Virus record (IMG/VR): IMGVR_UViG_3300021090_000060
Coordinates: 1-40,149 of that record
DNA from: a virus
DNA: 40,149 bases
Reading direction: 5' to 3' (one strand)
Part shown: piece after piece, positions 3,280 through 32,005 of the stretch
Position numbering within the stretch: position 1 is the first letter of the stretch
Layout: every line of letters begins with the position of its first letter
Made by a program: the position numbers and the translations under genes
The notes under the pieces: model-generated
The model's input: only the letters and a program-made list of their open reading frames with translations
What the model was told of the DNA's origin: nothing
The model's database searches: none

Positions 3280-4347
3280 ATGGCGGCTGACAGCAAGATC
3301 GAGTGGACCGATGCCTCTTGGAATCCCGTGAGAGGTTGCTCCATCGTCTCGCCCGGCTGCACCAACTGCTACGCGATGAAGCAAGCGCACCGCTTCTCCG
3401 GAGTCGGTCAGGCCTACGCCGGCCTCACCAAGCTGACCAAGGGCGGCCCGGTGTGGACCGGCAAGGTGTCGCTGCACCACGAGCTGCTGGACTGGCCGCT
3501 ACGCCGCCGGAAGCCGTCACGCATCTTCGTGAACAGCATGTCCGACCTGTTCCACGATGGCGTGCTGGACGAGTTCATCGACAAGGTGTTCGCTGTGATG
3601 GCGCTGGCGCCGCAGCACACCTTCCAGATCCTGACGAAGCGCGCAGCCCGCATGCAGATGTATCTACGCAACCACGCAGCCCGCGTTTCAGCCCTGCTCC
3701 TGCATTGGGGGGATCGCGGAGGCCGGTGGTGGCCATTCGAGGCCGTAAAAACGCTGCGATGGGAGGAAGTGAATCGCGCCGCCGTTGCCGTGTTCAAGCC
3801 GTTGCCGAACGTCTGGCTCGGCGTCAGCGTCGAGGACCAAGCGCGCGCCGACGAGCGCGTCCAGCTGCTGCTGCAGACGCCGGCAGCGGTGCGCTGGATC
3901 TCGGCAGAGCCGCTGCTCGGGCCGTTGAGTATTGCCGAATATTTGCGCGTAGACGGGTGCCACACATTCGCCGATGGTCAATCCTTTCCTGTGCTCTGCG
4001 TCGCTTGCGGTGGTAAAGGTTCTCCGCGATTAGACTGGGTTGTTGTCGGTGGGGAGAGCGGGCCAGGCGCGCGCCAGTTCGACATTGCTTGGGCGCGTTC
4101 GCTGCGCGACCAGTGTAAAGCGGCCGGCGTGCCGTACTTCCTGAAGCAGATCGGCGGCAACACCATCGGCTGGTGCCTCGGCAATGGCCACGGTGAACCG
4201 GAGTTCTACGTCGATTGCCAGGCGTATGAGGCGAGTGAATGCCGCGAGCCATGTCCGCGTGGTTTTTGCGGGTGCCGCCTCGATCGCAAAGGTGGCGACC
4301 CGGCGGAGTGGCCAGAGGATCTGCGCGTCAGGGAATACCCGGCATGA
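3280..4347 (+). CDS. Phage Gp37/Gp68 family protein (DUF5131)
   Basis: 355 residues. The N-terminus shows Ile-Glu-Trp-Thr-Asp-x-x-Trp-Asn-Pro, then Gly-Cys20, Cys27 and Cys30 in a Gly-Cys-x-Asn-Cys-Tyr-Ala context, the signature of the Gp37/Gp68 family. Further family marks are the Phe-Val-Asn-Ser-Met-Ser-Asp-Leu-Phe-His block near 85, LTKRA near 112, a WLGVSVE strand near 175, and WVVVGGESGPGAR followed by FLKQIGG near the end. The Cys cluster and TIM-barrel-like strands suggest a relation to radical-SAM enzymes, though the Cys spacing is not the classical CxxxCxxC. The substrate is unknown. The gene follows the membrane peptide by 3 bases and overlaps the next gene by ATGA. Confidence 0.85.
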   Translation: MAADSKIEWTDASWNPVRGCSIVSPGCTNCYAMKQAHRFSGVGQAYAGLTKLTKGGPVWTGKVSLHHELLDWPLRRRKPSRIFVNSMSDLFHDGVLDEFIDKVFAVMALAPQHTFQILTKRAARMQMYLRNHAARVSALLLHWGDRGGRWWPFEAVKTLRWEEVNRAAVAVFKPLPNVWLGVSVEDQARADERVQLLLQTPAAVRWISAEPLLGPLSIAEYLRVDGCHTFADGQSFPVLCVACGGKGSPRLDWVVVGGESGPGARQFDIAWARSLRDQCKAAGVPYFLKQIGGNTIGWCLGNGHGEPEFYVDCQAYEASECREPCPRGFCGCRLDRKGGDPAEWPEDLRVREYPA

Positions 4348-9250: not shown

Positions 9251-9454
9251 GTGGTCATTCGATCAGTGGGCCGAAGCCAAGGCCAATTACAACCTCTAAT
9301 AGATGGACTACCATTGACCATCGGACTCATTCTCGGCGCCGGGCTCTTCGTCACGGCCGCAGTGCTTGGCGAGCGGCACGCGCTCTATATCCCGGCGGTG
9401 GTTCTGCTCGCCGCGGCTACGGCAAATGTGATTGCTGGCCCACTAATCCCGTAG
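9251..9454 (+). CDS. Small two-helix membrane protein
   Basis: 67 residues if started at GTG 9251; a TTG at 9314 would give a 47-residue product that keeps both hydrophobic segments. The two helices (PLTIGLILGAGLFVTAAVLG and YIPAVVLLAAATANVIAG) are joined by a short charged loop with Glu-Arg-His. Size and topology would fit a small holin, but no lysin is visible nearby and the identity is open. It is the last plus-strand gene of the left arm; its final 12 bases overlap, tail to tail, the end of the giant late gene. Confidence 0.5.
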   Translation: MVIRSVGRSQGQLQPLIDGLPLTIGLILGAGLFVTAAVLGERHALYIPAVVLLAAATANVIAGPLIP

Positions 9455-12400: not shown

Positions 12401-15400
12401 GAATTGGACCCCGGATAATCTCTGCCACTCGGAGCGTTTTTCATTGTTGACGTACCGCAAGCCATCCTGAACCCATCGCACGATTGATCGTTGCGCGTTG
12501 TCCTTCGGATACACGCTCGCCACCACATTAGCGGCCACGCGGGCAAGTTCGCCGCCAGGATGAATCCCAACGATAACTGGGCGTCCATCTGATTTCACCA
12601 AATCCGTCACCACGACCAAAGAGCCAGCGGGGGCTATGGTGGACTCCGAATTCACAACGAAAACCGGATCGGCTATAGCGTCTGCGAGCACCTTCATTTC
12701 GCGCGAAATGACACCGTGATCGAACATGGCCTTGTCGGCGGTGGATTCGTCCATGCCGACAGGCAACTTTGGCATCCCAAGGCGAGTGAGAACGGCCGGC
12801 GTTTCCCCGAGGTAAATTGGTGCGCGACTGGATTCACCCCTCAAAATGGCGTCAATGCGGTCGGCAAGCGTAGCCTGTTGCGGCCACTGCATCTGCTCGG
12901 CGCGCAAGATTCCTGTCTTCGGCGTGAGGTCGGCGGTGGCTTTGACGCCGAGGGATGCGCGCGAAATCTCAGGGCGGCCGAATGGGTCAGCGGGGTCGCG
13001 GAAGCCAGTGACATCGGTTGCGAGATGGTTCTCGATCAGAAAGTCCAGCGATGCCGGGTTCTTGGAGATGACGAAGACGCCGTTGGGCGATCCGGTCATT
13101 CTGGCGAACCTGCGCACGCGGGCCATCGCGCGCATCTGAAGGGATTTTGTCGCCCCGCTCAGGGCTACCTCTGGAATCTCGGCGAGCGCCATGACCTGAC
13201 CACGGCCGCTGGTGCTAACCATGACGGCAAAACCTTCCTTCGCTTTCAGGGTGGAAGCTACCCGCGCGAGGGCCCCAGGGCCGTCGATGGTCTGCGAGAG
13301 CGCGTCGTGCCGCAGTTCCGGTTCTCCTCGAGGAGAACCGTGCCTGGTGACGCGGTGCATGGTATCGCCGCCAGCGTCGATGATCGAATACTCGTCCTGG
13401 TCGATGACGACGTGGCCGCGGAATCCGGCGAGATTGTCGGCGAACCGCTTTGTGATGCGGATGTCGGCCGAGCTCGGGGTAGAGGAGCCTGATGGATGGT
13501 TGTGCAGCACCCAGTACCCATCAGCCTCTAGGGAGTCCATCATCGCCTTGATGCCGGCAAGCGTCTCTTTCAGGGCTTTGAGGCCAAGGGCTTCCTGCTC
13601 ATCCTTCGGGGCGTTGCTCTTCACGGACTCGCGGAATTCCTTGGAGGACGTGAACGCCACGGCGCCGGGAAGTCTCGACGTGACTGCGGTATGGCCCACC
13701 ACGGCATCGCCCTTCGTGAAGAAGAAGCGCAGGGTCTCGAAACGCGGATCGCGCAGGATTTGCGCGAGGAGGGCGAGATCCTCAGCGGATGCGACTTGTT
13801 GGCCAATAAGTTCGGCGCCCTGGTGCTCGGTGAAGTCTTTCCAAAGCGCAGACGCAAGAAGGCTGGCCCCTTGTGCTCTGTCCCTAGAAAGAATGCCCTG
13901 TGCCGCGAGCGGTGCTATACTGTTTTTTTGACCAGTATGCTCACCGTTCACTGCTCCCATTGCGGCGCCGCGCTTAGTCGGAACCCCTACAGGGTTCTGC
14001 ATCACAGACGGCACTTTTGCAACAAACGATGCTATGGAGACTACCAAATCTCCAAGGGGGGCAAAACCTACGTGCACTCTACCAACCCTACCACTGGTAA
14101 GGGCTTGGACAAACATCGGTGCGTCATGCAGGAACATCTCGGGAGAAAGCTTCTCAAGTCTGAGCATGTTCACCACATCAACGGGAATGTGCGGGACAAC
14201 AGACTTGAGAACCTCGTCGTTCTCAGCCGCGGCGAACACCAGATCGCGCACAGCCGCCTGAAGTGGGACATCGAGGCCGCCCAAACCATGCTCCCTAAAA
14301 GCATCTGTGTGAACCGCATCGCTAAGAATCTCGGCGTCGCGGCCTGGAGCGTGCGAAGTGCGCTTCGCGCTCGTGGACTGATCGGTGCCAGTAAGGGCCC
14401 TGCTGCCCTTACTTGGGACATCGAGGCCGCCAAGAAGATGCGCGGCCTGGGCTTGAGTTTCTACAGAATCGGAAAGCTGCTCGGTATTGATGGCCCCACG
14501 GTTCACTCCGCCTTTAAGGTTCGCGGTTTGCACACCGTCCGCGGCACCTTGTAGGGCGCTTTCGTCTCCACGATTCCGATTGAATAAGGACTTGAGCGCG
14601 GCAATTCCGAGGGACTTCTGCTCTTCAGTGGTGCCGGGACGAGTTTCAACTTGGTCATAGGCGAGATCGAGTTGGGAGGGATTGTACGCCGCTTTTGGCT
14701 GGAATAGGGCCATGCCTTGCATGGCGCGATCACGGAGGCTGGGGGTGATGTCAAAGCCCGGCTGATTCTTCGTCGGTTCGCGCTCTGGCGTGTGTCCAGC
14801 CTCAAGAACTTCGAGCATGTCGAACGCCGTCACCCGCCCGCCGCCGAGCTTCTTGAGCACGTCGTTCGCGACATTCGGGACGATGGTGTCATAGAAGGCG
14901 AGCATCCCCCCCCCGCCTATCTTCAAGTCAAGGCCTGAGAGTCCGTAGTAGGCGAAATCTCCGGTGCCTTTCTTGGTCTTCGTGCGGAGCAGTTTGTCAG
15001 CGGCATCTTTGCCGATGAAGTCGGCTAGATTTTCGCGTGCCACTTCGCGCTGAATGACCGGGATGTTGTCCTTGATGGCGATGAGTTTCTGCGTCGCGGG
15101 GTAATACTGCACGGAGTCAATGCGCTTCGACAGATCGTAGCGGTCAACTTGTTGGGCGCCGGTGGTCCACGAAATACGCTCGAAGCCGTGTTCAGCTCCA
15201 TACGCGATCATGCGCTTCAGGGCCAGCGACAACCACGCTTCCGTTTTCTGAACGAAGGGGGCGCGCGGCACGGCGATTGCATCTCTCTTGTTCTCGCGGT
15301 CGGCCCACGCCTGAGCTTCGGTGCGCGTAGAGAATCCGCCTTCACCGCCACCGCCATCGTCCGCCGCTGACCATGTTCCGTCCTTCTGCTGCTCCACCTT

Positions 15401-18400
15401 GTAGTTTTGCGACTCGCCTTGGAAACCGTCGCGTCGGCCCTTGGCCGACCAATCCGATTGCCACTCTTCGATGAAAAGGACCTTGCGGCCTTCTGCATCC
15501 ACTCGCTCGTTGAAGCGAACATGGGCGAGGACATTCGGCTGGTCGAAGTGGGGGGAGCGGAATCGCTGTACGGGGTCGTTCTTGCCTTCGCTGCGACGCA
15601 CGATTGACTCCGGCAGCGTCAGCAGCAACTCGCGGTAATTCTTCCCGCCAGGCAGGGTGTAGGTCTCGAACTTCGTTCTGGCGCCAGCGTCCTTAAGGAC
15701 CTTGCGGGCTTCCTCTGCGCGAATATACTCCTCACGAACTTTGCCGTAGGCACGCAACTTTTCGATCTGCTCATCGTTCAGGCCAACGGCCCGCGCTTTC
15801 TCCTCCGCCTCCTTTGCCCCATACGCAGATGGGTCGTGCATCTCATGCGCCCACCACGGAAGATTCATGCGGTCAACGCCACGGATGGGTGGTATGGTCA
15901 CATCAATCTCGCGCCACATTACCGCTTGCTGCTCGCTGAGAGTCGCTGCCTTACGCGCCGCAGCGTCATACTCGGCAGCGGACTCCCCACCAAGCACCGT
16001 CTCCTCCACCCGCACGCCGTTCTCGGCGAGGAAGTCGAGCAGCGCGGATTTCTCCACCTTCCCGGTTTGGAGCGCGAGCCATTCGTTCACGCCAGACCAT
16101 TCAACTTCATCCTTTTTCACCCCCGGCAGTTGGGCGATAATGGCCTTCCACTCTTGCGCGGTGCCGGAAGCGCGCTTCAGGTCTTCGAGCTTGCGTGTCA
16201 GGTCGGAATACCAAGGGGACGCGACTTCGTAGGGTGCCTTGTCCTGTTCTGCAGTTGTCGCCGGGCCGCTTGGTTCTGCTGGCGTTGTCGTAGCCTCGCT
16301 ACGATTCGTCGGCTCTTGCGCGGAAGTGCCGACGTTTTGTACCGGCTTCGCCGCCTTCTCGATGGTGTCGGCAGCGGTGCGAAGTGCGTTCGCGGCCGTG
16401 GCGAGGAGGTCCTGCTGGCCCTTCGCGGCAGCTTGGTCGGCCGCACGGTCGGACCCGGCGAGTTTGAATTCCTCGGCCGGCGGCGCGGCCTCGCGGCGGC
16501 GCTTCTCTTCTTCGGCCTTGGTGCGCTCTGTTTCTTTGCGCTGGACTTCTTCCTCAGTCTCGCCGGCGAGGGCGAGGGCGGGGCTACCCTCCAATTCGCG
16601 CTTTGGAGGGGCGGCTGGCGCGGGGCGGTTTACTTCCGGCCTGTTTTGTTCAGTCTGAGTGAGCTTTTCAGCGGACGCTGAAACTACTTCTTCTCGGTCT
16701 TCTCCGGGTTCGCGCTCGCCTGCGGGTTCGGCTTCTGCTTCGCTTGCCGGTCCCACCGCTCCTGCGTCAGCTTCCGCGCCAGTTTTCGCACCGGCAGGGA
16801 CGCGCGTGTCTTCGCCGAAGAGCTTGTCAAGGTGGTCATCCTTCTCTTCCTCCGTCATTGTACGCCACGAATCTGGTACTTCCCCGGCTTCCGCCGAGAG
16901 CGCTTCTGCCTGGCTCAGGTTCTCCCTGGTCGCTTTCACTTCGGCCAGCATCGCCTTCACGATGTCCTTCTGCTTCGCCCCAAGTGGCTTTCCGGCGATT
17001 GCCTTCTCGACGGCCGCTTTCACGTCCTCTGGCGTAGCGCTGAAGCCCTTGGCCCACTCAGGTTGCCCGGCAAACACGGTTCGCCAGGCACCTTCCGCGT
17101 TCATCTCGCTACGCGAGCGAATGCCCTGCTGCTCATCGAATGCAGTACCGGCGCCAACAGCACGTCCGCCGCGCTCCAGGTGGCCGGCGTTCGCGGCCAT
17201 CGTGCGCAGCATTTCGTGCGTGTCCTCTGGAACCGTGATCTTGGCTTCCGCGGCCTTCGCCGCGGCGCGTGCGCGACGTTCGGCTGGCAACAGTCTGCCT
17301 ACGGCTTCCTTCCCGAGACCGGCTTCTGCCCCGGCTTGCGCCGCGCGTTGAAGATCCGCGTCGCCTTCGACTGCGCCTCGTTGTACGCCGGGCTGTCCTT
17401 CTTCGCTCCCTTGGCGAATTTGTTCCTCATTGCCTCGTACTGTTTCGGCATTTGGTGCTCCTTTCGTGATTGCTGCTGTACGCATTTCGAGTGCGTTTGT
17501 ACGAGTTTCGGCTACAGTCGTTGCTATGCCAGCAACGGGCGCTTTCAGCTCACCGCCCTTCGGTCCCCTCTCGCTCTTGTCGAACGCCCACGCCTTGAAC
17601 TGCGGGCTCGGCATGGAAACTATCGAGCCGATGCGCTTCTCAGCTTTTGCACGGTTGTCGTAGTTGCGCAGGTAGGCTTCGCGCGCCTCCTCCTCTGATG
17701 CGTACCCAGCCATTGGCTTGTGCTCGTCGAAGGCTCCGTCGTCGCGGTTCTGGTTGACCACGAAGTAGGTGCCGGTCCATTCCTTCGGCGTGCCCTTCTT
17801 GACGAACACGTCCAGGTGGTCCTTATCGAAGCCCTGCGTGCCGCGCAAATAGCCGTAGTGAACGTCCTGCATCTCCACGGACCACAGAGGCGGGTCGTTT
17901 TTCTTGTCGGTGCGCGTGGACCCCGCCGGGTTCTCGATCGACACGTCCATACCGTCCACCGTCGGGTGGCCGAGCTTGGCGTTGTTGGCTGCGATCTGCG
18001 GGGTCGTGGGCTCCGGGCGTTCGTTCTCCGGACTGCTCGCCGCCTCGTGAGCGGCGGCATCGACGGTCTCGCCGCTCAGTACATCGGCTTGCGGCGCGGC
18101 GGTGACTTCTTGGGTGCCTGCTGCGGACGCTTCTTGAGTCCCGGTTGCATTTGCCGGGGCATTGACGATCGGTTCATTGCCATCTGCGGTTCCTTTTTTG
18201 GTGGCGCCGACAGCCTCGGCGCGGGCCTTCACTTCCTTCACCGTGCGCTCGGCCTGCTGGCGCGCGGTCTCCTCTTTCATCTGGCGAGCGAGTTCACGCA
18301 TCTTGCTCAGGGAGCCGTTCGGGTCCTCGGTTTCTGGCCGGCCGCCAACGTGCGCGGCACCGCCGAATACACCACCTGTCAGGCCACCAATGGCGCCGCC

Positions 18401-19342
18401 GGTGAGCGTTTGGCCGACAACATCCTTCGAGGGATCCACCGACTTGTCGATGAAATCGCGGCGGGCGGCGCCGGAGATGTAGGCTTCCCCACCGGACTGC
18501 GGGGCTTCCTGCATGGTTTCCGTCAGCGCGCCGCGGCCAATGCCCTTCACCACTTCCTTCAGGCCGAAGCGCGCGCCGGGCTTGACCAACTCACCAAGGG
18601 CACCACCGCCGGTGAGTAGCGACACCCCGCCAGTCCATGGTGCGGTGCGCAAGAAGACCTGATTCGAGCCTTCGGCGGCAAGCAATTCCAGGGCGGTATC
18701 TGGGTCGTGCTCGGCGAGGAGTGCGCGGAAACGCGGGGAAGTTGAGGCGAGCTTTGCGATCTTGGCTGGATCGCCTCTGTTGGATTCGATCTCGGTCTGG
18801 AAGTCTGCGGCGTTCAGGGCGCCGGATTGGATACCCTCGGCAACGCCGAAACCGATACCACCCGGCGCGTTGCGCGCCAGCAGGCCTGTGAGGCCCGTGG
18901 CGGCTTGTGCGGCTTTGGGGATGACCTTGGCTACCCCGGCGGCCAAGGGACCGCCTACGGGCGCCATCATCACCGTGGAGGGCAAAGAACGGGCAGCGCC
19001 CATCAGGAGCGACTGGCCCCACTTGTCGGCAACCTTGAGGTCTGACAACCCTCCATCGAACATCGGCGTGGTCGCCGCGCGGCGCCCACCGGGGGTCATG
19101 CTTGTCAGTAACTCTTGCTCGAGCCAGTCCCCGGCCTTACGCATCCGGGTTCCGTAGTCAATGCCAGCCTTCTCGGCCACCCACCCGAGGCCCTTGGCAG
19201 TGTCGCTTACAAAGCCGGTCCCGACCTGCTTCAGGTAGTCGAGAGCGGAAGGGGACTTGGCACGCTCCTCGTCGGTGTCGCCGGAGTAAGGCTCTGCCTC
19301 GGGCAACTCGTCCAGGGCGCCCCTGAACTCGGTGACGGCCAT
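9443..19342 (-). CDS. Giant polyvalent PLxRFG-type protein, probably ejected with the DNA
   Basis: 3299 residues, starting directly after the previous stop. Domains read along the chain: Gly/Ala-rich amphipathic segments (about 110-350); an inorganic-pyrophosphatase-like domain (about 460-570; IENPAGSTR, HYGY, DHLDVFV, DEHKPM); a long charged coil (about 570-1060); a phage domain with FIEEWQSDW and SWTTGAQQ (about 1100-1560) ending in ALFQPK; a RadC/JAB metalloprotease-like domain with His-Asn-His-Pro-Ser-Gly near 1946; a MuF-C/PBECR-like domain with PVFVVNSES near 2230; the PLxRFG motif (here PAMRFGRF) near 2644; and a helical C-terminus with a hydrophobic stretch near 3010-3030. Such polyvalent proteins travel inside the capsid and enter the host at infection. 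Residues about 1597-1802 are antisense to a complete HNH gene and are probably not native. It is the last gene of the late arm. Confidence 0.9.
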   Translation of the reverse strand: MAVTEFRGALDELPEAEPYSGDTDEERAKSPSALDYLKQVGTGFVSDTAKGLGWVAEKAGIDYGTRMRKAGDWLEQELLTSMTPGGRRAATTPMFDGGLSDLKVADKWGQSLLMGAARSLPSTVMMAPVGGPLAAGVAKVIPKAAQAATGLTGLLARNAPGGIGFGVAEGIQSGALNAADFQTEIESNRGDPAKIAKLASTSPRFRALLAEHDPDTALELLAAEGSNQVFLRTAPWTGGVSLLTGGGALGELVKPGARFGLKEVVKGIGRGALTETMQEAPQSGGEAYISGAARRDFIDKSVDPSKDVVGQTLTGGAIGGLTGGVFGGAAHVGGRPETEDPNGSLSKMRELARQMKEETARQQAERTVKEVKARAEAVGATKKGTADGNEPIVNAPANATGTQEASAAGTQEVTAAPQADVLSGETVDAAAHEAASSPENERPEPTTPQIAANNAKLGHPTVDGMDVSIENPAGSTRTDKKNDPPLWSVEMQDVHYGYLRGTQGFDKDHLDVFVKKGTPKEWTGTYFVVNQNRDDGAFDEHKPMAGYASEEEAREAYLRNYDNRAKAEKRIGSIVSMPSPQFKAWAFDKSERGPKGGELKAPVAGIATTVAETRTNALEMRTAAITKGAPNAETVRGNEEQIRQGSEEGQPGVQRGAVEGDADLQRAAQAGAEAGLGKEAVGRLLPAERRARAAAKAAEAKITVPEDTHEMLRTMAANAGHLERGGRAVGAGTAFDEQQGIRSRSEMNAEGAWRTVFAGQPEWAKGFSATPEDVKAAVEKAIAGKPLGAKQKDIVKAMLAEVKATRENLSQAEALSAEAGEVPDSWRTMTEEEKDDHLDKLFGEDTRVPAGAKTGAEADAGAVGPASEAEAEPAGEREPGEDREEVVSASAEKLTQTEQNRPEVNRPAPAAPPKRELEGSPALALAGETEEEVQRKETERTKAEEEKRRREAAPPAEEFKLAGSDRAADQAAAKGQQDLLATAANALRTAADTIEKAAKPVQNVGTSAQEPTNRSEATTTPAEPSGPATTAEQDKAPYEVASPWYSDLTRKLEDLKRASGTAQEWKAIIAQLPGVKKDEVEWSGVNEWLALQTGKVEKSALLDFLAENGVRVEETVLGGESAAEYDAAARKAATLSEQQAVMWREIDVTIPPIRGVDRMNLPWWAHEMHDPSAYGAKEAEEKARAVGLNDEQIEKLRAYGKVREEYIRAEEARKVLKDAGARTKFETYTLPGGKNYRELLLTLPESIVRRSEGKNDPVQRFRSPHFDQPNVLAHVRFNERVDAEGRKVLFIEEWQSDWSAKGRRDGFQGESQNYKVEQQKDGTWSAADDGGGGEGGFSTRTEAQAWADRENKRDAIAVPRAPFVQKTEAWLSLALKRMIAYGAEHGFERISWTTGAQQVDRYDLSKRIDSVQYYPATQKLIAIKDNIPVIQREVARENLADFIGKDAADKLLRTKTKKGTGDFAYYGLSGLDLKIGGGGMLAFYDTIVPNVANDVLKKLGGGRVTAFDMLEVLEAGHTPEREPTKNQPGFDITPSLRDRAMQGMALFQPKAAYNPSQLDLAYDQVETRPGTTEEQKSLGIAALKSLFNRNRGDESALQGAADGVQTANLKGGVNRGAINTEQLSDSVETQAQAAHLLGGLDVPSKGSRALTGTDQSTSAKRTSHAPGRDAEILSDAVHTDAFREHGLGGLDVPLQAAVRDLVFAAAENDEVLKSVVPHIPVDVVNMLRLEKLSPEMFLHDAPMFVQALTSGRVGRVHVGFAPLGDLVVSIASFVAKVPSVMQNPVGVPTKRGAAMGAVNGEHTGQKNSIAPLAAQGILSRDRAQGASLLASALWKDFTEHQGAELIGQQVASAEDLALLAQILRDPRFETLRFFFTKGDAVVGHTAVTSRLPGAVAFTSSKEFRESVKSNAPKDEQEALGLKALKETLAGIKAMMDSLEADGYWVLHNHPSGSSTPSSADIRITKRFADNLAGFRGHVVIDQDEYSIIDAGGDTMHRVTRHGSPRGEPELRHDALSQTIDGPGALARVASTLKAKEGFAVMVSTSGRGQVMALAEIPEVALSGATKSLQMRAMARVRRFARMTGSPNGVFVISKNPASLDFLIENHLATDVTGFRDPADPFGRPEISRASLGVKATADLTPKTGILRAEQMQWPQQATLADRIDAILRGESSRAPIYLGETPAVLTRLGMPKLPVGMDESTADKAMFDHGVISREMKVLADAIADPVFVVNSESTIAPAGSLVVVTDLVKSDGRPVIVGIHPGGELARVAANVVASVYPKDNAQRSIVRWVQDGLRYVNNEKRSEWQRLSGVQFPGKLPARSADSIVLTDAEIVKADRAAQWGDDPFQPKVPGILEQNKAPYDVTYTQQQSDANILRQPAAPYGQPPIAGSQTTGDERDSLAANAQSFVRDMLHSDEKFNWWHRTIGTQQHKALSNADFRRVYDESQAFLTDVSKYANEAADMARDLLPKIDSFADFGRKSASKDDIEATTKALYAGTLWGNGSPLTGRVWSDEELRTGRARDGNVTIPVFTGLNDRQAGIYRQTLASVTKSLDEMGKSIIHRLVRVHGIGFDRGMSLDDVVAVVDEKIDDAVVDLSLELERAQEAQDEAGVAKVRREIATLQDTRVAVHDVVEKTKGLQEHGYFPAMRFGRFAIHVVQDRAGGGVDQRYFGTFESQTKANLAARELAKEFPEARLERGVLSVEQARLFQGLSLDALETFAEYITDEDGQPIARDPLVQGFLKAAVGERSALKRHIHRKGVLGYSDDLSRVLASFTVSSARATSSAYHGAEMLRLSNDIRAGDVKDEAIKLVRYLQDPMEEAHALRGFLFAQFLGGSIAHGLVNMTQPFLVTGPYLTQYTSPADAAAKLAQAATTRTERLTGAIGDAYRRAKQEGVVSPQEIHQLRAETGGLPIAKNLALRKLSFLWGSIYSITEQFNRSTTFIASYRIAVEKGMPNPYAFAANAVHETQFVYNRGNRPNWGRGPIGATVMTFKQFSISYLELAQRMFKKDRKAFALMVLMLLAAAGAEGLPFSEDAEDLIDTIGQWMGFATNTKKSLRKWVTAQVGPDMARVVLNGISGLPWMPVDVSVRMGFQNLIPGTGMLKLSEENKARDVIELAGPVGQFVPVEGTMMGRAIERIAKGDLFGAVKSAAPVAVQNVAKGIEMLTTGQARDTKGKKITEVSPGDAVFKMAGLQPAKVARESEIIGEVRQDIAMQKRMESEIAEQWARGIIDAEPDVVRAAMKKMHDWNLDNPSLRVRITSAQIRSRVRQARMSREQRFVRSAAPEIRGQVRRELRD
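13913..13921 (+). promoter_or_regulatory. Extended -10 promoter candidate for the nested HNH gene
   Basis: TGCTATACT gives an extended TG motif plus TATACT, one base off the sigma70 consensus. It lies 15 bases before the HNH start codon, followed by a run of seven T. No -35 match is seen at the right distance. It would let the nested gene be expressed independently of the opposing late transcript. Confidence 0.4.
13937..14554 (+). CDS. HNH endonuclease nested antisense in the giant gene
   Basis: 205 residues from ATG 13937; the frame continues upstream but that part is shadow. An N-terminal zinc ribbon (Cys6, Cys9, Cys28, Cys32) precedes an HNH_3-type core: Lys-His-Arg-Cys-Val-Met-Gln-Glu-His near 59-67, His-Val-His-His at 77-80, Asn82, Asn88 and Glu-Asn-Leu-Val-Val at 91-95. 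Two tandem helix-turn-helix repeats follow (about 110-147 and 160-197), each beginning Trp-Asp-Ile-Glu-Ala-Ala and ending in Arg-Gly-Leu; they probably read the target site. No ribosome site is clear, but an extended -10 lies just upstream. It runs opposite to the giant late gene and lies wholly inside it, in exact codon register, with no TTA, CTA or TCA codon to stop the other strand. Confidence 0.85.
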   Translation: MLTVHCSHCGAALSRNPYRVLHHRRHFCNKRCYGDYQISKGGKTYVHSTNPTTGKGLDKHRCVMQEHLGRKLLKSEHVHHINGNVRDNRLENLVVLSRGEHQIAHSRLKWDIEAAQTMLPKSICVNRIAKNLGVAAWSVRSALRARGLIGASKGPAALTWDIEAAKKMRGLGLSFYRIGKLLGIDGPTVHSAFKVRGLHTVRGTL

Positions 19343-23175: not shown

Positions 23176-24963
23176 TTACTTTTTGCCATAGGCCTTGAGC
23201 CCAATCCTGTTCGTTCCCATGCGCCAGGCATCTCCCACCGCATCGGACGTGATCGAGAGCGTGACCTGCCGCCCCTTCACACGGGGATTGATGAACTCGG
23301 TGGCAGATGTCACTGCAAGAGCACCGCTGTCGCTGTCGTAACTCGAACTGTGCGGGTACTTCTTAGCCTTCAGGCGCATGTCCACGCTGCCGGTAAGCGT
23401 CTCGAAGTCGGGGATCAGGCTGGTGACGATCATCAGCATCCCGCCTTCCTGAATCTCCACGTCACCGCTCTCCAGCGTCGCGGTGATCGCGCTGGCATCG
23501 GAGTCAGTTCCGGTTTCGTGGTCGTAGAGGTAGCCATCCGTTCCGGTGGCGTAGGGCACCAGGAAGATGTCGCTGTCGCCCACAAAAGCCGTGCGCGCAA
23601 GCGTGCCGAAGCTCCACAGCTTCTCCTCGACGTTGTACGTCACGTAGCGATCCACTTCCGTTGCCTCGGCAGAGCAGTAGAACCACCAGATTTCCCCGAA
23701 GTCCCGGTTGTAGCCCGCATACGTCTTCGCGCGCTGGATGAAGTTGCTGTTCCCGAACACGGTGGGGTGCACTTCGCACGCCAGGATGTGAATGGCGCCG
23801 TCGTAGTAGTGGAAGTCTTTCTCGCCCATCCAGTAGACGACGCCATTGACCTCGATCATCGCGTTCGGCCCGCGAATCGCCCCATTCAACCCCAATGGTT
23901 CCCATGCGAATGTGTTCGGCGGCCCGATGAACGTCATGCTCCACAAGTGCGAGTTCGTGAAGACGAGGATTTCCTTCCTCGTCTTGAGTCCGCCCACGAT
24001 CTCGTGTCCGGTGTTCAGCCGCTTCTGGCCGGCGCTGTTCGTGGAACTCGGCGTCCAGCCAGTGTAGTCCTCGCTGGTTGCCCACCGAATGAGCAGCGGA
24101 TCTAAAGCGACCCCGTTGTGGGCACCAAGAGCGATCAAGTGCTGGTTCTCCTGCGAGACCATGATCTGCTTCGCCTCGGCAGGGGCTCCAGAGATAATCG
24201 TCGCCCTCGTTCCAGTACCGGTGCTCGTATCCCACACGTAGATACCGCCGTCTCTCGGACAGGCGATCATGTCCTCGCCCCAGGTGTCCAACGACCAGAT
24301 ACGCGCGGCCGTGAGAAAGCTCGACAGCGTTCGCGGAGTGCCCCACGTCGATTCGCTCCAGGAGCCCGCTCCCCACCCTAGTCCCGCAACGGAATCCGCT
24401 TCCCCGACATCGATCTCGTAGGAGTAGGTCACAACAGCACCACCGCCGGTCGCCGTGGACGTCGCCGCAGCGGAATGCGTGATGGTGTAGTTGTCCACGT
24501 CCAGGACTTCCGTGACCGTGTACTCGCCGTCAATGGTGATGCCGCCGACTGCAGCCGCCCCGCCGAACGTAACGTAGGTCCCATCGTTATCAATGCCGTG
24601 GGCAGTGTGGCTGATGTTCACCACCGCAGAACCGTTGGTCGTGTCGATAGGATTGAGAGCAAGCGTGCCGCTGGCGCGGATCGGCGTGATGTTGTAGTAC
24701 GTCCCGCCCTTCCAGACGTAGAGCTTGAGATGCGTCCCCAAGCCGATGAACTTCTCGAAGGAGAGCGATTGCCAGTCGATCAGCTTGCGGCACATGCCGA
24801 GGAACGTGGTGATGCCAGACTTTAACCAGCCTCCAATTTTTTCTGGCAGGCCGTGCCGGAAGCGCACATGATCGGCGTTTTTCCAGCGCCCGGCCGAGCC
24901 GCGGTCAGTAGAGATTGTATAAAGTCCGGGGGCGACCTTGAGGGGGGATGGGTCCAAAGCCAT
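23176..24963 (-). CDS. Tail nozzle/stabilisation-type beta-propeller protein
   Basis: 595 residues, strongly beta-rich. The N-terminus (PLKVAPGLYTISTDRGSAGRWKNADHVRFRHG) followed by Gly-Gly-Trp matches the start of podoviral tail proteins that close the tail tube and stabilise packaged DNA. Repeated blade-like units follow: WGTPRTLSSFLTAARIWSLD, WGEDMIACPRDGGIYVWD, HLIALGAHNG, ILVFTNSHLWSMTFIG, YWMGEKDFHYYDG, WWFYCSAEATEVDRYVTYN, with many Trp and Tyr at blade positions. The start codon overlaps the preceding stop by one base. It could be a T7 gp12-like nozzle or a P22 gp10-like hub; the sequence does not decide. Confidence 0.65.
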   Translation of the reverse strand: MALDPSPLKVAPGLYTISTDRGSAGRWKNADHVRFRHGLPEKIGGWLKSGITTFLGMCRKLIDWQSLSFEKFIGLGTHLKLYVWKGGTYYNITPIRASGTLALNPIDTTNGSAVVNISHTAHGIDNDGTYVTFGGAAAVGGITIDGEYTVTEVLDVDNYTITHSAAATSTATGGGAVVTYSYEIDVGEADSVAGLGWGAGSWSESTWGTPRTLSSFLTAARIWSLDTWGEDMIACPRDGGIYVWDTSTGTGTRATIISGAPAEAKQIMVSQENQHLIALGAHNGVALDPLLIRWATSEDYTGWTPSSTNSAGQKRLNTGHEIVGGLKTRKEILVFTNSHLWSMTFIGPPNTFAWEPLGLNGAIRGPNAMIEVNGVVYWMGEKDFHYYDGAIHILACEVHPTVFGNSNFIQRAKTYAGYNRDFGEIWWFYCSAEATEVDRYVTYNVEEKLWSFGTLARTAFVGDSDIFLVPYATGTDGYLYDHETGTDSDASAITATLESGDVEIQEGGMLMIVTSLIPDFETLTGSVDMRLKAKKYPHSSSYDSDSGALAVTSATEFINPRVKGRQVTLSITSDAVGDAWRMGTNRIGLKAYGKK

Positions 24964-25373
24964 CAGGCGGCCTTCTTGTCCTCGACCGGCGCTTCGATGA
25001 TGAAATCCAAATCACTCAGCACGGCCGGGGACAGGGCCAGGTGCTCGATGTCGGAAAAGGCGATGCGCGCGCAGCCCTCAAGCTCGACCTCGGAATCGAG
25101 GAGCGCCTGAATCTCGGCGTTGAAGGCCGCCACGTTTTCCGGCGTGACCTCAGTGACCTCGCGCTCGACCTCTTGACCGGGGAGTTTCTTCATCATCTTG
25201 ACCCCGTACTTCAAGATGGCCTTGTTGCGCGCGCCCTCGAACTCCCGGTATTCGCTGGAGAGCTTCTTGACGAGTTTGCTGATGCGGTAGGCCGCCTTCG
25301 CTGGCAGCTCCCGCTGCGCGAAGACGGAGATGGCGGGTTGAGCGTCGATGATGACGGACATCTTGACGAACAC
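24963..25373 (-). CDS. Hypothetical helical virion-cluster protein
   Basis: 136 residues from GTG 25373, which lies 5 bases after a strong AGGAGG; the in-frame ATG 12 bases later is too far from it, and the open frame upstream to 25439 is spacer. Two long basic helices (about 22-55, KAAYRISKLVKKLSSEYREFEGARNKA) precede an acidic second half (EVEREVTEVTPENVAAFNAE, LLDSEVELEGC). It overlaps the beta-propeller start by one base and is probably co-translated with it. A small chaperone or tail component is possible. The promoter region is shared, divergently, with the regulator gene at 25425. Confidence 0.55.
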   Translation of the reverse strand: MFVKMSVIIDAQPAISVFAQRELPAKAAYRISKLVKKLSSEYREFEGARNKAILKYGVKMMKKLPGQEVEREVTEVTPENVAAFNAEIQALLDSEVELEGCARIAFSDIEHLALSPAVLSDLDFIIEAPVEDKKAA

Positions 25374-25388
25374 GATTACCTCCTGGGG

Positions 25389-25420
25389 TTGACAAATATG
25401 GTCATTTGTGTGCCTAATAG
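25389..25420 (+). promoter_or_regulatory. Promoter with operator-like inverted repeat before the cargo operon
   Basis: A perfect -35 hexamer TTGACA (25389-25394) overlaps an inverted repeat, ACAAAT (25392-25397), six bases, ATTTGT (25404-25409). A TAATAG -10 candidate lies at 25415-25420; the 20-base spacing is longer than ideal. The start codon of the ribbon-helix-helix gene follows within 5 bases, so the transcript may be nearly leaderless. Placement of the repeat over the promoter suggests autorepression by that regulator. Confidence 0.5.
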
Positions 25421-25424
25421 GGGC

Positions 25425-25580
25425 ATGAAGCGCACACACGTTTTCTTGCCGGAACCTTTGCTAAAAGAACTTAGGGCCCTCGCAAAGCGTACCGACATCT
25501 CCGTTGCAGAACACATGCGGCGAGCAATCGAGGAATACCTGAAGTGCCGCCGCGAAAACCATGAAAGGAACCGCACATGA
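25425..25580 (+). CDS. Ribbon-helix-helix (Arc/CopG-like) regulator
   Basis: 51 residues from ATG 25425; the longer open frame is shadow. The chain is a single ribbon-helix-helix domain: a short N-terminal strand (Lys-Arg-Thr-His-Val-Phe-Leu), helix A (PLLKELRALAKRTD), and helix B (ISVAEHMRRAIEEYLKC) with the usual Ser-Val-Ala-Glu-His turn, then a basic tail. Proteins of this type dimerise and insert the strand into the DNA major groove. The inverted repeat in the promoter directly upstream is the likely operator. The stop overlaps the start of the beta-barrel gene (ATGA), so both form a two-gene unit on the strand opposite to all surrounding virion genes. Confidence 0.8.
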   Translation: MKRTHVFLPEPLLKELRALAKRTDISVAEHMRRAIEEYLKCRRENHERNRT

Positions 25581-26188
25581 AACGCACCCTGCTGGTTGTA
25601 GTACTCGCGACAGCTTTTTCGGCTCACGCGGGGCCGTATATTTCCACCGGACTCTCCAACAATTCGGCTGGTGACTCGGCCATGGCGGCAGAGATCGCGG
25701 TGGGTTACACCTTCGGCAAGTTCTCGCTCGAAGCCGGGACGTTTGCGGTCGGGACCATCAAGAAAGAGGAAGCTGGCTTTGTCGGCACGCTCACGTCCGG
25801 CCGGACGCAGGCGAAGTGGGACTTGGGCGGCTTTCGCCTCACGGGCAAATTGGCGTTCCAGATCAACGACCGCTGGTCCGCGTTCGGGACTGCGAGCGCC
25901 TACCGCATCCAGTACGGCTACAATACCGCGGTGGACACCTTCATATACGACTCCGACCCGCTTGGCGATCCTGCGGGCAATATCATCGACGCCAAGCACA
26001 CAGGTACGTCGTCTACCGTTCGCGAGTGGACTCCGGCCATTGGGATCGGGATGGAGTTCTCCCCCAAGGCGTGTTGCAGTGTGTACGCCACGCTCGAGCG
26101 AATCAGGCTGAAGTCCGGGGCGTTCGGCTCGGGAAACGACCTGCCGAGCATGACCTCCGGTCACATCGGCTTCAAGTTCACCTTTTAG
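25577..26188 (+). CDS. Secreted outer-membrane beta-barrel protein (phage cargo)
   Basis: 203 residues with a signal peptide (Met-Lys-Arg-Thr, hydrophobic core LLVVVLATAFSA, Ala-His-Ala cleavage near 18). The mature part alternates hydrophobic and polar residues in about eight strands with Gly/Aromatic ends (AAEIAVGYTFGKFSLEAGTF, FRLTGKLAFQIN, WSAFGTASAYRIQYGY, WTPAIGIGMEFSP, CCSVYATLERIRLKS) and ends in Phe-Lys-Phe-Thr-Phe, the C-terminal aromatic signal for barrel insertion. The Pro-x-Ile-Gly-Ile-Gly-Met-Glu and Gly-x-Ile-Gly-Phe-Lys-Phe segments resemble OmpA/OmpW-like small porins. A secreted barrel inside a virion cluster is typical of lysogenic-conversion or superinfection-exclusion cargo (moron). 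Confidence 0.75.
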   Translation: MKRTLLVVVLATAFSAHAGPYISTGLSNNSAGDSAMAAEIAVGYTFGKFSLEAGTFAVGTIKKEEAGFVGTLTSGRTQAKWDLGGFRLTGKLAFQINDRWSAFGTASAYRIQYGYNTAVDTFIYDSDPLGDPAGNIIDAKHTGTSSTVREWTPAIGIGMEFSPKACCSVYATLERIRLKSGAFGSGNDLPSMTSGHIGFKFTF

Positions 26189-26212
26189 GTGCATGCGCAG
26201 CATTGCCTAGTG

Positions 26213-26230
26213 GCGGTTCGCTTTAACCGC
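26213..26230. terminator. Weak hairpin after the cargo operon
   Basis: GCGGTT (26213-26218) and AACCGC (26225-26230) form a 6-base stem around a 6-base loop, 25 bases past the beta-barrel stop. No convincing T-run follows on either strand. It also contains the stop codon of the minus-strand adhesin gene, so it may lie between two convergent transcripts. Its function as terminator is uncertain. Confidence 0.3.
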
Positions 26231-26984
26231 TTCTAGTTCCGGTGATCGTTCCCACGACGACGAAGTTGATCTTCGAATCGCCGAGAGTTGCCGCACCAGC
26301 TGCGGCGCCGGCATTGTACGGAGCCCCATTGGCGAGGCCAGTACCACCGGTGGCTCCGAAATCGCCGCCGCCACCACCAGTATCGTTTTGTGCAGATCCG
26401 CCTAGCCCACCGGCACCAGGCACGGCCGAAGTACCGGAGCCTCCTGGCGACCCCGGAAAATTGTTGGAACTGCCACTCGCAGGCCCGCCTGGCCCGCCTG
26501 CAGTGGTCGCTTTCCCTCTTCCGCTGCCGCCGCCACCACCGCCCCAGGAACTAGCGCTCGGCACACAACCGGCTCCACCAAAGCCACCGCCGCCGCCACC
26601 ACCAGCGATGGTGCCGTTGTTCGTGAATTTCACCATGCCGGCAGCAGGCAGCCCGGTCGCGTCGATCGCCGGGCCGCCAGCCGTAGGACTGACGCCCGCG
26701 ATCGGTGTGCAGACACTCGCACCTTCGCCAGTGCCACCTTGGCCACCCTTGCCCATGATGGTGCCGTTGCAGATCACCTCGATCTTCGCGCCGATGTGCC
26801 ATCCGCTGCCAAAAATAAAACCGGCGGTCGAGGTACTCGTACTGCCGATCTCTGCACCGGACGCGATTTTCACAACTACGCGCACCGGGCCGCTTGGCGA
26901 TCCTGCGGCCGTGAAGACGTTGTAATCGTCCACCAAACTCACGTTGAGCACGAGGCGAGGAAAGAGCGGCGCGGGCATGAACAT
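26223..26984 (-). CDS. Glycine-rich tail adhesin-like protein
   Basis: 253 residues from ATG 26984, overlapping the micro-ORF stop (TGATG); the frame is open to 27029. The N-terminal 100 residues are beta-rich and resemble a fibre-attachment domain (LVLNVSLVDDYNV, GPVRVVVKIASGAEI, IGAKIEVICNGTIMGKGGQGG). Two Asn-Gly-Thr-Ile elements introduce glycine runs. The C-terminal half holds several runs of four to seven Gly separated by variable short loops (SASSW, KATTAGG, SSNNFPG, AQNDTGG). Such interleaved Gly-rich motifs occur in receptor-binding tail-tip adhesins like those of T4-type phages, where Gly strands pack into a polyglycine sandwich and the loops contact the receptor. It lies just downstream of the tail fibre. 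Confidence 0.6.
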   Translation of the reverse strand: MFMPAPLFPRLVLNVSLVDDYNVFTAAGSPSGPVRVVVKIASGAEIGSTSTSTAGFIFGSGWHIGAKIEVICNGTIMGKGGQGGTGEGASVCTPIAGVSPTAGGPAIDATGLPAAGMVKFTNNGTIAGGGGGGGFGGAGCVPSASSWGGGGGGSGRGKATTAGGPGGPASGSSNNFPGSPGGSGTSAVPGAGGLGGSAQNDTGGGGGDFGATGGTGLANGAPYNAGAAAGAATLGDSKINFVVVGTITGTRSG

Positions 26985-27091
26985 CAGTGTCTCCAAGTCT
27001 GCACGAAGAACCCGCGTTGCTTGAACCACGAGCGCGGCATGACCACGCTACGCGGCGGCGTCCAGAGCTTGCGGTCGGGCTTCAGGATCAT
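26984..27091 (-). CDS. Micro-ORF between fibre and adhesin, unknown
   Basis: 35 residues starting in an ATGA overlap with the tail-fibre stop and ending in a TGATG overlap with the adhesin start. It is basic, with four Trp/Phe-rich spots (KLWTPPRSVV, SWFKQRGFFVQTW). The double overlap makes translation likely, either as a real small protein or as a ribosome relay to the adhesin gene. No family is recognised. Confidence 0.5.
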   Translation of the reverse strand: MILKPDRKLWTPPRSVVMPRSWFKQRGFFVQTWRH

Positions 27092-28979: not shown

Positions 28980-30121
28980 TACGTTGCGCCTCCGAAGCTG
29001 TTGGTGAATCCCATGGCCTCGGCCAGGGTGTCTGGTACGGTGACGGTGTACTCGGTGGTGGCATTGGGTATGCCAGCTATCAACTCAGCGGCCGGGCTAC
29101 CGCTCTGGTTGATCGTCCAGACTTCGCCAGTCGAAGACGTGAATGAGGTATCTGACGTGCCTCGGTCATTGTTCGGATCGAACTTGGCGACTACGGTGCC
29201 GTCGATGCCGTTGCGGAGTTCGGCGTAGTAGACCTTGCCACTAAACGCACGAGAGTCATACTCCCAGGCCCAGACTCGCAACGCGGCAGTGCTATCGAAA
29301 ATTGAGCCTGCAAAACCGAACATTTGGTCTGTGCCAAGTTGTGTCCAAGTTACTCCGTCCTCACTTGTATAAAACTTCAGCTCAGTAGCACTCCGAGTCA
29401 CCCGGACCCAGTGTGGCGACCCATTCACGAAGCCTGTGGGAACGCTACTACTAAGCACACTTTGGGTAGACCCATCAACTGAGCCATGAAAGGACAATAG
29501 CCCTGGTCCATCAGAACTTACCGTAAGCGCATATGCCCACTGTCCTTGGGCGCCATATTTGCCTACTAGCACATTGGACAGGCTTCCTGGCGTCCAGTCA
29601 TCCATCGCCACTTTCACCCTGATATCGATATCCCCCGTGATCGACACTGCCGCGCTATCCGGCGTGCTGGCGTAGTTGCCGGAAGTGCCGGACAGACTCA
29701 GATACCCGGCGTTCCAGGTTGCGACTTGAGCCACCTTCGTCGATCCGTTGTAGCCCAAGATCGTCCGCGACTGCTCGCTTCCAGCCCCTCCGGTCAGCGC
29801 CAGCGTGCCGTTGATGTAGTCGCTCGCCACGCTCGAAGCATTCGTCGCCAGCGTGAGCGAGTTCGCGCTTCCAGCCTGCGCCGTGCCGCTGTGGTCAACC
29901 GCAGTACCGGGCGAGTCGTCGTCCCGATCCGGTCTCGGGTTCTTCAGCGCGATGCCCTCGTCCAGTCTCACGGGCTTCTCTGCTGGATGCGGTTCGTCCC
30001 TGCAACTCGGATGCACGCGCAACTTCGGGTTGTAGCCGTCGTGGACGAGCAGGCGGTAGGGGTACTGCATACCGCACGCATCGCAGTACGAAAGTGCATT
30101 TTTTCCGCTAGCGAATTTCAA
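28979..30121 (-). CDS. Zinc-ribbon/lectin-like (LamG-type) virion protein
   Basis: 380 residues from TTG 30121, chosen because GAGG lies 7 bases before it and it forms a TTGA overlap with the GIY-YIG stop. The N-terminal 45 residues carry Cys-Asp-Ala-Cys-Gly and His-Pro-Ser-Cys, a zinc ribbon found as a separate small protein in many phages. An acidic linker follows, then a Gly/Ser/Thr segment (SANSLTLATNASSVASDY) and a beta-sandwich region (about 140-340; DIDIRVKVAMDDW, WAYALTVSSDGPGLLSFHGS, HWVRVTRSATELKFYTSEDGVTW) with the strand pattern of concanavalin A/LamG lectins. It probably decorates the virion and may bind sugars. The zinc ribbon plus lectin arrangement looks like a gene fusion. 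Confidence 0.65.
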   Translation of the reverse strand: MKFASGKNALSYCDACGMQYPYRLLVHDGYNPKLRVHPSCRDEPHPAEKPVRLDEGIALKNPRPDRDDDSPGTAVDHSGTAQAGSANSLTLATNASSVASDYINGTLALTGGAGSEQSRTILGYNGSTKVAQVATWNAGYLSLSGTSGNYASTPDSAAVSITGDIDIRVKVAMDDWTPGSLSNVLVGKYGAQGQWAYALTVSSDGPGLLSFHGSVDGSTQSVLSSSVPTGFVNGSPHWVRVTRSATELKFYTSEDGVTWTQLGTDQMFGFAGSIFDSTAALRVWAWEYDSRAFSGKVYYAELRNGIDGTVVAKFDPNNDRGTSDTSFTSSTGEVWTINQSGSPAAELIAGIPNATTEYTVTVPDTLAEAMGFTNSFGGAT

Positions 30122-30759
30122 GCTGCTACCTCATGCGCGTGTTGCGGGTAACGACGCGCATACTCTCCGCGCCAACCGTCTCCGTAGTTGCGCTTCATGT
30201 TCGAGATGCGCGCGGCGCGGCGCCGGTTCTCTGTCTGCGCAGGCGTGCAGCGGTAGCCCTTGCTGTAGGCGTTGCCTTTACGAGCCGCGACTGCGCGCTC
30301 GCGGTAGATGGGATTTGCCCACAGTGCGCGTGCTGCCTCCGATCTCTGCGCGCTGGAAATGGGCACGGAACGTTGCGCGGCAATCATTTTGCTGCGGTGT
30401 TTTTGCCATTTGAGTTTCGACGCTGCACCCACCTTGCGCCTTGTCTCGTCGGTATGCACCATTCCCAAACTGCTGTGGCCACTGGCGCACTTTGTGACGT
30501 TGTAGGTGTATTTGCCGGTATCGAGGTAGCGTTGCTCAGCCTCTCTGTTTCTCGCCGGCTCCACGCATTCGAGCATCATGAATGTGAACGCGCCCTGACC
30601 GTACTCGCGCCACGCTTTCATCAGAGGCTTGCAGTGGTGCCCGCCTGAATGCAGCGACCCGCGGTGCCTGTTCCATCGCTTCGTGATGTTGTGCGAGGCC
30701 CCGACGTACATCTCCCCTGTGACGCGGTTCAGGATGACGTAGACGCCGCTCAAGCGCAT
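30118..30759 (-). CDS. GIY-YIG homing endonuclease with NUMOD3-type repeats
   Basis: 213 residues. The catalytic domain spans about 1-90: Gly-Val-Tyr (5-7) and Tyr-Val-Gly (18-20) stand for the GIY and YIG motifs, with Arg28 and Glu74 (in EAEQRYLD) as the expected catalytic residues. DNA-binding motifs follow: Ser-Ser-Leu-Gly-Met-x-His-Thr-Asp-Glu-Thr-Arg-Arg-Lys-Val near 96-110 fits NUMOD3, and further Arg/Ala-rich repeats extend to the end. The enzyme should make a site-specific cut that drives its own spread between phages. The gene lies between an adaptor and the lectin-like gene with overlaps at both ends (TGATG and TTGA), preserving translational coupling. Confidence 0.85.
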   Translation of the reverse strand: MRLSGVYVILNRVTGEMYVGASHNITKRWNRHRGSLHSGGHHCKPLMKAWREYGQGAFTFMMLECVEPARNREAEQRYLDTGKYTYNVTKCASGHSSLGMVHTDETRRKVGAASKLKWQKHRSKMIAAQRSVPISSAQRSEAARALWANPIYRERAVAARKGNAYSKGYRCTPAQTENRRRAARISNMKRNYGDGWRGEYARRYPQHAHEVAA

Positions 30760-31415
30760 CAGTACGTACCTATCCCGAAAGACGTATCGCTTCTCTCTCT
30801 GTCCTCGCCTTTGGCGAGCTTGAAGGCGCGCTCGGCCTTCAGTTCAAGCTTGTCCTGCCGATCTGCAGCCCACTTCTCGGCAAGGCGGGCAGCAAGACCG
30901 CCAGCAAGCGCGTCCCACCACAGGAACGGCACGTCGGGCGTCTCCTGCCCAGCAGTCGCCGTTTGGATCTGCCGCACGCGGTAAGCACGAAGCACGTCGG
31001 TCGAGTTCTCCGGCACCTGCCAGAGCTTGTACGAGCCAGCCTTGCGGTCATACCAGATGCCGCTCGGCAGCCCCTCGGCGGTCTTGTCGGGGATCATGTG
31101 GTACTGGTCCCGCGTCATGTGGTGCACGGCCGTGTCAACGTCGCTGCGACGGATCACGGCCTCGAGGATGGCCAAGGTTCCGGTGGGCGCCGCGTAGTCC
31201 CCATCGCTCACGGTGAGCGTCTGGGTAAACTCCTCGACCGTGAATAGATGCACGCCGCGGTTGCCCCACTCGACGAACATCAGGTTGATCGAGCGCAGGG
31301 CGGACGTGAAGTGCTGGCGCGTGAGCTTGGCGGGATCCTTCTGGATTTTCTCGAAGGCTTCCTCGACCACGTCACCGTAATCTGGCGCGAAGTTGTATAG
31401 ACCTGATGTGCTCAT
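30759..31415 (-). CDS. Phage head-tail adaptor/completion protein
   Basis: 218 residues. The start (SGLYNFAPDYGDVVEEAFEKIQ) and the block LRSINLMFVEWGNRGVHLFTVEE are strongly conserved in neck adaptor proteins of podovirus-like phages, followed by SDGDYAAPTGTLAILEAVIRR and the Tyr-x-x-Ile-Pro-Asp-Lys-x-x-x-Gly-x-Pro segment near 115. The C-terminal helices (WDALAGGLAARLAEKWAAD, LKAERAFKLAKGEDRERSD) complete the fold. It should sit at the portal-tail junction beside the second adaptor encoded downstream. Start overlaps the NUMOD gene stop by 4 bases (ATGA). Confidence 0.7.
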   Translation of the reverse strand: MSTSGLYNFAPDYGDVVEEAFEKIQKDPAKLTRQHFTSALRSINLMFVEWGNRGVHLFTVEEFTQTLTVSDGDYAAPTGTLAILEAVIRRSDVDTAVHHMTRDQYHMIPDKTAEGLPSGIWYDRKAGSYKLWQVPENSTDVLRAYRVRQIQTATAGQETPDVPFLWWDALAGGLAARLAEKWAADRQDKLELKAERAFKLAKGEDRERSDTSFGIGTY

Positions 31416-32005
31416 GCGTAAACGAACTCCATGCCGCGAATCTGTTTGCGTTGGCCAGCAGCCACCTTTCTAATGCTGGTGATGTGAAAACCTAGATCAA
31501 TAGCTGCCGCTCGACACGACTCATACGAGATGCCCGTCTGCACACACTTGATCGGCTTGCGTCGCTTGGCTGCCGATGCGGCTCCGCTGATCTTCAGTGC
31601 TTCTATGATGTGATCCGGCGGTCTCGGCACACCACGGATCGCTTTTGTTGCATTCGCCTTGGCGGTGGTCGCTGGGTCACGCTTCTTCCCAAGCCAGTAG
31701 CGCGTGGGATTGGCGAGCTTGGCCGCGCGAATTTTCTCCACCGTTCGCGGATCACGCTTCCTTCCCTTCCAGTATCCAACGCGACCCATGAGCTTGCTGC
31801 TAATCAAAGCCAAAGTCTCCGGCGAGTGCCGATACCCCAGAGACCCCTTGTGTGGTCGGTTCTCCGCTTTGCGCATCATGGCGCGCAACTTATTTGCGGC
31901 CCCGATCTTCTCCAACTCCTCGGCGATGACCAGAACGGCCCGGTAGCCGTGCGCGAGAGGCTTGATGGACTCCACGGCCTGTTTCACTTCTGGGCTCATG
32001 CTCAT
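31412..32005 (-). CDS. NUMOD3/NUMOD1 protein lacking a nuclease domain, possible fusion
   Basis: 197 residues. Residues 1-48 (VKQAVESIKPLAHGYRAVLVIAEELEKIG) resemble the helical start of an ordinary phage structural-region protein. From about 50 the character changes: Gly-Tyr-Arg-His-Ser-Pro-Glu-Thr and Gly-Arg-Lys-Arg-Asp-Pro-Arg-Thr-Val-Glu-Lys-Ile are NUMOD3 repeats, and about 150-197 (CVQTGISYESCRAAAIDLGFH...IRKVAAGQRKQIRGMEFVY) is a NUMOD1-type helix-turn-helix module. These parts normally trail a GIY-YIG or HNH nuclease, but no catalytic motif is present. The gene overlaps the micro-ORF upstream by 4 bases (ATGA) and the adaptor downstream likewise. It may be a decayed homing endonuclease joined to the 5' part of a native gene. 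Confidence 0.7.
   Translation of the reverse strand: MSMSPEVKQAVESIKPLAHGYRAVLVIAEELEKIGAANKLRAMMRKAENRPHKGSLGYRHSPETLALISSKLMGRVGYWKGRKRDPRTVEKIRAAKLANPTRYWLGKKRDPATTAKANATKAIRGVPRPPDHIIEALKISGAASAAKRRKPIKCVQTGISYESCRAAAIDLGFHITSIRKVAAGQRKQIRGMEFVYA

Follow-up and report, generated by a model that had tools for sequence, protein, structure and literature searches.

A recurrent ribbon-helix-helix header with apparently exchangeable cargo genes in phages, here preceding a predicted outer-membrane barrel

Morons, ribbon-helix-helix (RHH) repressors and phage barrels are all known kinds of genetic element. Autorepression is the known role of the RHH proteins CopG and Arc; the barrels of the Lambda Lom, OmpX and Ail type and the phage porins (e.g., PA-2 Lc) are small, phage- or host-encoded proteins that alter the cell surface, and outer-membrane barrels are also the structures recognised by the Gp38 adhesins of T-even phages. 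To our knowledge, no barrel of the Lom/OmpX/Ail/PA-2 Lc type lies behind an RHH gene. Furthermore, an RHH header shared by phages and followed by swapped cargo is apparently undescribed, since we found no account of it in the literature, the coverage of which was incomplete.

The window, i.e., the whole stretch of DNA analysed in the present work, is a virus record of 40,149 bases without end repeats; it is probably a fragment, which makes the lifestyle of the phage uncertain. Its left part is coded on the plus strand and includes genes for a RecE-like exonuclease and a DUF5131 protein (3280-4347, plus strand; DUF5131/phrog_2045, a strong match with E 1.5e-83, function unknown), while from position 9443 onward the coding strand is the minus one, with the virion genes. 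A 3,299-residue polyvalent-type giant phage protein with inorganic-pyrophosphatase-like, RadC-like and MuF C-terminal domains is encoded at 9443-19342 (minus strand), and three genes for homing-type endonucleases (GIY-YIG/homing, NUMOD3, HNH) are located at 30118-30759 (minus), 31412-32005 (minus) and 2143-2652 (plus). RNA families and tRNAs were not found. The virion block is interrupted by a plus-strand run of two ORFs, flanked by two minus-strand genes (24963-25373 and 26223-27029) that both have PHROG/Pfam hits, as expected from the earlier note on this DNA, according to which the pair runs against the surrounding virion genes. The features of this locus are the following:

25389-25394, plus strand: -35 element TTGACA; a TTGAC is also present ahead of the RHH gene in 14 of the 49 relatives, mainly between -39 and -35
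25392-25397 and 25404-25409, plus strand: inverted repeat ACAAAT-N6-ATTTGT within the promoter spacer, candidate operator
25408-25412, plus strand: GTGTG at -17 to -13, candidate operator, placed where the relatives most often carry the motif
25413-25418, plus strand: -10 element CCTAAT, 6 nt ahead of the ATG, predicted leaderless start
25425-25580, plus strand: gene for a 51-residue RHH (CopG/Arc-type) repressor, from PF01402, PHROG 3180 and a structure model
25577-25580, plus strand: ATGA stop/start overlap (translational coupling), in which the last bases of the RHH gene are the first of the barrel gene
25577-26188, plus strand: gene for a 203-residue predicted outer-membrane barrel of eight strands, from a signal peptide recognised by eye, the C-terminal GFKFTF and a sub-threshold match to PF01389
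26205-26231 (region 26199-26230), no strand assigned: GC hairpin GCGGTT/AACCGC between convergent genes

The 51-residue protein matches the Pfam family PF01402 (RHH_1) with E 1.8e-9 and 37.7 bits against a cut-off of 20.5, as well as PHROG 3180 (Arc-like repressor). The AlphaFold2 model, based on 14 relatives, has two helices and a mean pLDDT of 89, and the Foldseek search carried out with it placed CopG and Arc among the best structures, none of which fell below E 0.001. The earlier description of an RHH gene overlapping a signal-peptide barrel gene by ATGA was confirmed, also by the genome-like codon bias of the barrel gene, and the RHH protein is likely a repressor of its own unit. RHH antitoxins also precede toxins in overlapping operons, and the NCBIfam profile of a RelB-like antitoxin reaches the RHH protein with E 2.1e-5, below its cut-off; the pair might therefore represent a type II toxin-antitoxin system with the RHH protein as antitoxin. 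However, the RHH proteins of this family (42-51 residues) consist of little more than the DNA-binding domain and lack a conserved C-terminal part for toxin binding, their cargo comprises unrelated nucleases, Imm and ligase, and profile searches of the barrel protein retrieved neither a toxin family nor a nuclease. We rejected this reading for the absence of a toxin-binding region and of a known toxin partner, and regard it as the least probable of the alternatives.

A wider search for the RHH protein in viral contigs (IMG/VR) retrieved 80 loci with 67 distinct RHH proteins; 49 distinct relatives from IMG/VR were analysed, and promoter counts refer to these plus the window (n = 50). We use the term header for the promoter together with the RHH gene (about 150 nt). 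In 22 of the 50 upstream regions, exactly 6 nt separate the best -10 match from the ATG, and the similarity to TATAAT peaks at this spacing (mean 3.38 of 6, the runner-up being 2.34), so that a leaderless mRNA is predicted. Moreover, GTGTGTA is present in 17 of the 50 regions against 1.35 expected from simulated sequences. The layout of the window, TTGACA-N18-CCTAAT-AGGGGC-ATG, has the spacing of the family in spite of its weak -10 element; with an upstream profile built from the other 49 sequences, the RHH start ranked third among the 1,045 ATGs of the window. A generic sigma-70 scan reported no promoter at the RHH gene of the window, because the second position of its -10 element is not A. 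The idea that the pair has its own promoter was supported. A terminator role of the 3' hairpin was not: the sequence downstream of the barrel gene does fold, but on the plus strand no better than shuffled sequences (z -0.79), and a U-tract was absent. The minus-strand fold of the same hairpin gave a z of -2.2. The inverted repeat in the spacer is short and may be a chance occurrence.

The gene following the RHH gene begins at an ATGA/GTGA overlap (offset -3) in 33 of the 49 relatives. As for the orientation, 14 of the 28 loci having a long ORF on both flanks carry the unit antisense to its two neighbours; among control genes this was the case for 86 of 761 in the capsid relatives (P 1e-6) and for 14 of 62 in the regions flanking the RHH loci (P 0.014). 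The strand was called from the longest ORF, which is error-prone in GC-rich DNA; L192 counts as mixed here even though it has antisense called ORFs on either side (seen as L157). The window unit shows the family traits, with its -10 element 6 nt from the ATG, its ATGA overlap and its antisense position relative to both neighbours. On the basis of sequence comparison, it is well supported that the RHH gene and its promoter constitute a recurrent header common to many unrelated phages, where it mostly precedes homing endonucleases and TnpB; this aspect was not part of the earlier reading.

The 203-residue protein has a signal peptide (MKRTLLVVVLATAFSAHA, cleavage ...SAHA/GP) and a C-terminal aromatic beta-signal (GHIGFKFTF), both recognised by eye. 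The GC content at the three codon positions of its ORF (0.51/0.52/0.79) resembles that of the real genes of the genome, and its amphipathic strands exceed those of shuffled sequences (P 0.013). The match to PF01389 (E 0.0039, 17.4 bits) is below the cut-off of 21, PF13505 gave no match, and the model obtained from the single sequence has a pLDDT of 30. The outer-membrane product proposed in the earlier note is favoured by the signal peptide, the beta-signal and the strands, together with a profile match that stays under its cut-off; the protein is predicted to be a barrel that would insert into the outer membrane. Relatives of the barrel were not retrieved from phages (to E 10), plasmids, viral contigs (two pattern sets), genome contigs or the PDB; the viral and genome scans used exact patterns of eight residues, which distant relatives could escape. 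Among the collections searched, no other phage contained the RHH/barrel pair.

The capsid gene of the window has IMG/VR relatives of up to 63% identity, which share with the window the gene order capsid, fibre, stabilisation protein. The RHH/barrel pair is absent from the fibre-stabilisation interval in all 13 related phage records, where the interval is empty or harbors other, unrelated ORFs; these data suggested that the site is variable and that the pair is an addition to it. The Gp38-like adhesin and the neighbouring 136-residue gene are also extra in the window, so that the exact empty site is not seen in the relatives. Furthermore, no phage integrase was found in the window record or in 12 related records (13 in total, up to 74.7 kb); this makes a lytic setting likelier than the lysogeny previously considered. 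In turn, the interpretation of the pair as a moron was maintained in part: an antisense two-gene unit with its own promoter and a likely RHH repressor, absent at this site from 13 relatives, corresponds to it; the terminator is unconvincing and a prophage setting the less likely one. The location inside the virion gene cluster might also suggest that the barrel is a late lysis or virion component (e.g., an outer-membrane disruptor), all the more as the relatives DSL-LC04 and ctjtQ328 carry a holin and an M15 peptidase near this position; nevertheless, the barrel gene is antisense, has its own early-type promoter and is missing at this site in the 13 relatives, and we judge such a role very improbable.

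The gene adjoining the barrel gene (26223-27029, minus strand) codes for a glycine-rich protein matching the Pfam family of the Gp38 tail-fibre adhesins (PF05268, E 4.2e-7, above the cut-off). Given that outer-membrane barrels are the targets of T-even Gp38 adhesins, the barrel might be a receptor decoy or swap paired with this adhesin, which would keep the progeny off debris or the same cell, or divert competitors. The adjacency, though, may be due to chance in a variable site, and we consider this explanation improbable.

In the other viral contigs, the relatives of the RHH gene are followed by mobile nucleases (TnpB, GIY-YIG, HNH) and not by barrels. The Pfam analysis of 48 cargo proteins (window barrel included) identified GIY-YIG in nine, TnpB-type nuclease domains in about 8-10 and HNH_3 in one, as well as, once each, DNA ligase, Imm_superinfect, ParB, resolvase, Lar and pentapeptide repeats; the HNH-like labels of L188, L200, L255 and L256 were given by eye, and some of the small cargo ORFs (L160, L203, L215, L239) may not be genes. 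In the phage contigs L181, L184, L185, L186, L198 and L201, TnpB genes lie directly 3' of the RHH header. The RHH-headed cargo of L194, L203, L239, L250 and L252 consists of tiny one-helix membrane proteins, which are candidate exclusion proteins. At L157 (3001-3323) and L192, the header precedes the gene for a 61-residue superinfection-immunity protein (PF14373 Imm_superinfect, E 4.8e-19), and the unit lies antisense among tail genes.

One subgroup (L195, L196, L200, L203, L204, L238) has headers of about 150 nt that are 77-89% identical, upstream flanks sharing short matches only, and a cargo represented by a GIY-YIG protein, a zinc-finger HNH-like protein or a 39-residue membrane ORF. In addition, RHH proteins 82-85% identical occur ahead of both TnpB and ligase, or of both HNH-like cargo and Imm. 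The occurrence of similar headers with differing flanks and cargo argues for recombination of header and cargo and indicates that both are exchanged. In the window, the header has a GC content of 50.5%, within the lowest 0.85% of the stretches of equal length, and the barrel gene a genome-like one of 60.6%. This difference, together with the nuclease cargo of most relatives, the orphan nature of the barrel and the variability of the site among the relatives, might imply that the header derives from a selfish homing/TnpB element which lost its nuclease, and that the barrel is a neutral or host-derived passenger, acquired by recombination and devoid of a phage function. We tentatively keep this explanation as an unlikely but serious one. 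The cargo of the window unit does not match the nuclease of a homing/TnpB element; moreover, the barrel gene has an intact frame, a genome-like codon bias, a signal peptide, a C-terminal Phe and an exact ATGA coupling, which suggests that it has been maintained.

The sequences themselves show the homology of the headers, the geometry of the promoter, the overlap, the antisense position and the exchange of cargo; repression, its timing, outer-membrane insertion and exclusion are what we infer, and we propose the following scenario. A mobile control module of about 150 nt, comprising a leaderless promoter and an RHH autorepressor, would spread across unrelated phages and provide varied cargo with an early pulse of expression followed by shut-down, a proposal to which we assign an even chance. 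Transcription from the header promoter by the polymerase of the host would begin as the phage DNA enters, when RHH protein is still lacking; the RHH protein would then build up, bind its own promoter and turn the unit off, limiting both the toxicity of the cargo and the antisense conflict with the late virion genes. Such early-then-off expression would suit genes whose overexpression does harm or which clash with late antisense genes. The ATGA-coupled cargo gene would be exchangeable and would mostly enter the phage genome in antisense orientation. In the present case, the exported barrel may remodel the cell surface during infection, and it might block the adsorption or the DNA entry of competing phages. 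Since the header already carries exclusion cargo (L157/L192), the barrel is most plausibly a surface exclusion factor in lytic growth, a role based on one Imm example and on general knowledge of phage envelope proteins, most of the known cargo being nucleases. The reading as a whole, i.e., an autorepressed header of mobile type with early expression and shut-off, whose cargo here is an envelope protein most plausibly devoted to superinfection exclusion, appears to us evenly poised between right and wrong.

If this is true, the accessory genes of phages have a common, portable module that starts and regulates their expression, which would explain how genes placed in reverse within late operons come to be expressed early and silenced afterwards. 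Searching behind the header would also be a practical route to new exclusion or anti-competitor genes, the first candidates being the window barrel and the small membrane proteins of the sister cassettes.

As regards the known systems, the window unit resembles a moron in its location between virion genes, antisense orientation, own promoter, accessory product and header of foreign composition; it differs in that the promoter is tied to an RHH repressor, in a header recurring before unrelated cargo, as well as in the unconvincing terminator and the probably lytic nature of the phage. Its RHH protein shares fold and size with CopG and Arc (identity about 20-30%), which act on plasmid copy number or on genes of lysogeny and not on swapped cargo. 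The barrel is similar in kind to Lambda Lom, OmpX, Ail and PA-2 Lc, with no significant sequence match. The RHH-headed TnpB and GIY-YIG/HNH cassettes have a homologous RHH protein, the same promoter geometry and the overlap, but their cargo is a selfish nuclease. Lastly, the Imm_superinfect cassette of L157/L192 (T4 Imm family) has the same type of header, the ATGA overlap, the antisense position and a cargo directed to the envelope, this cargo being a 61-residue inner-membrane protein instead of an outer-membrane barrel.
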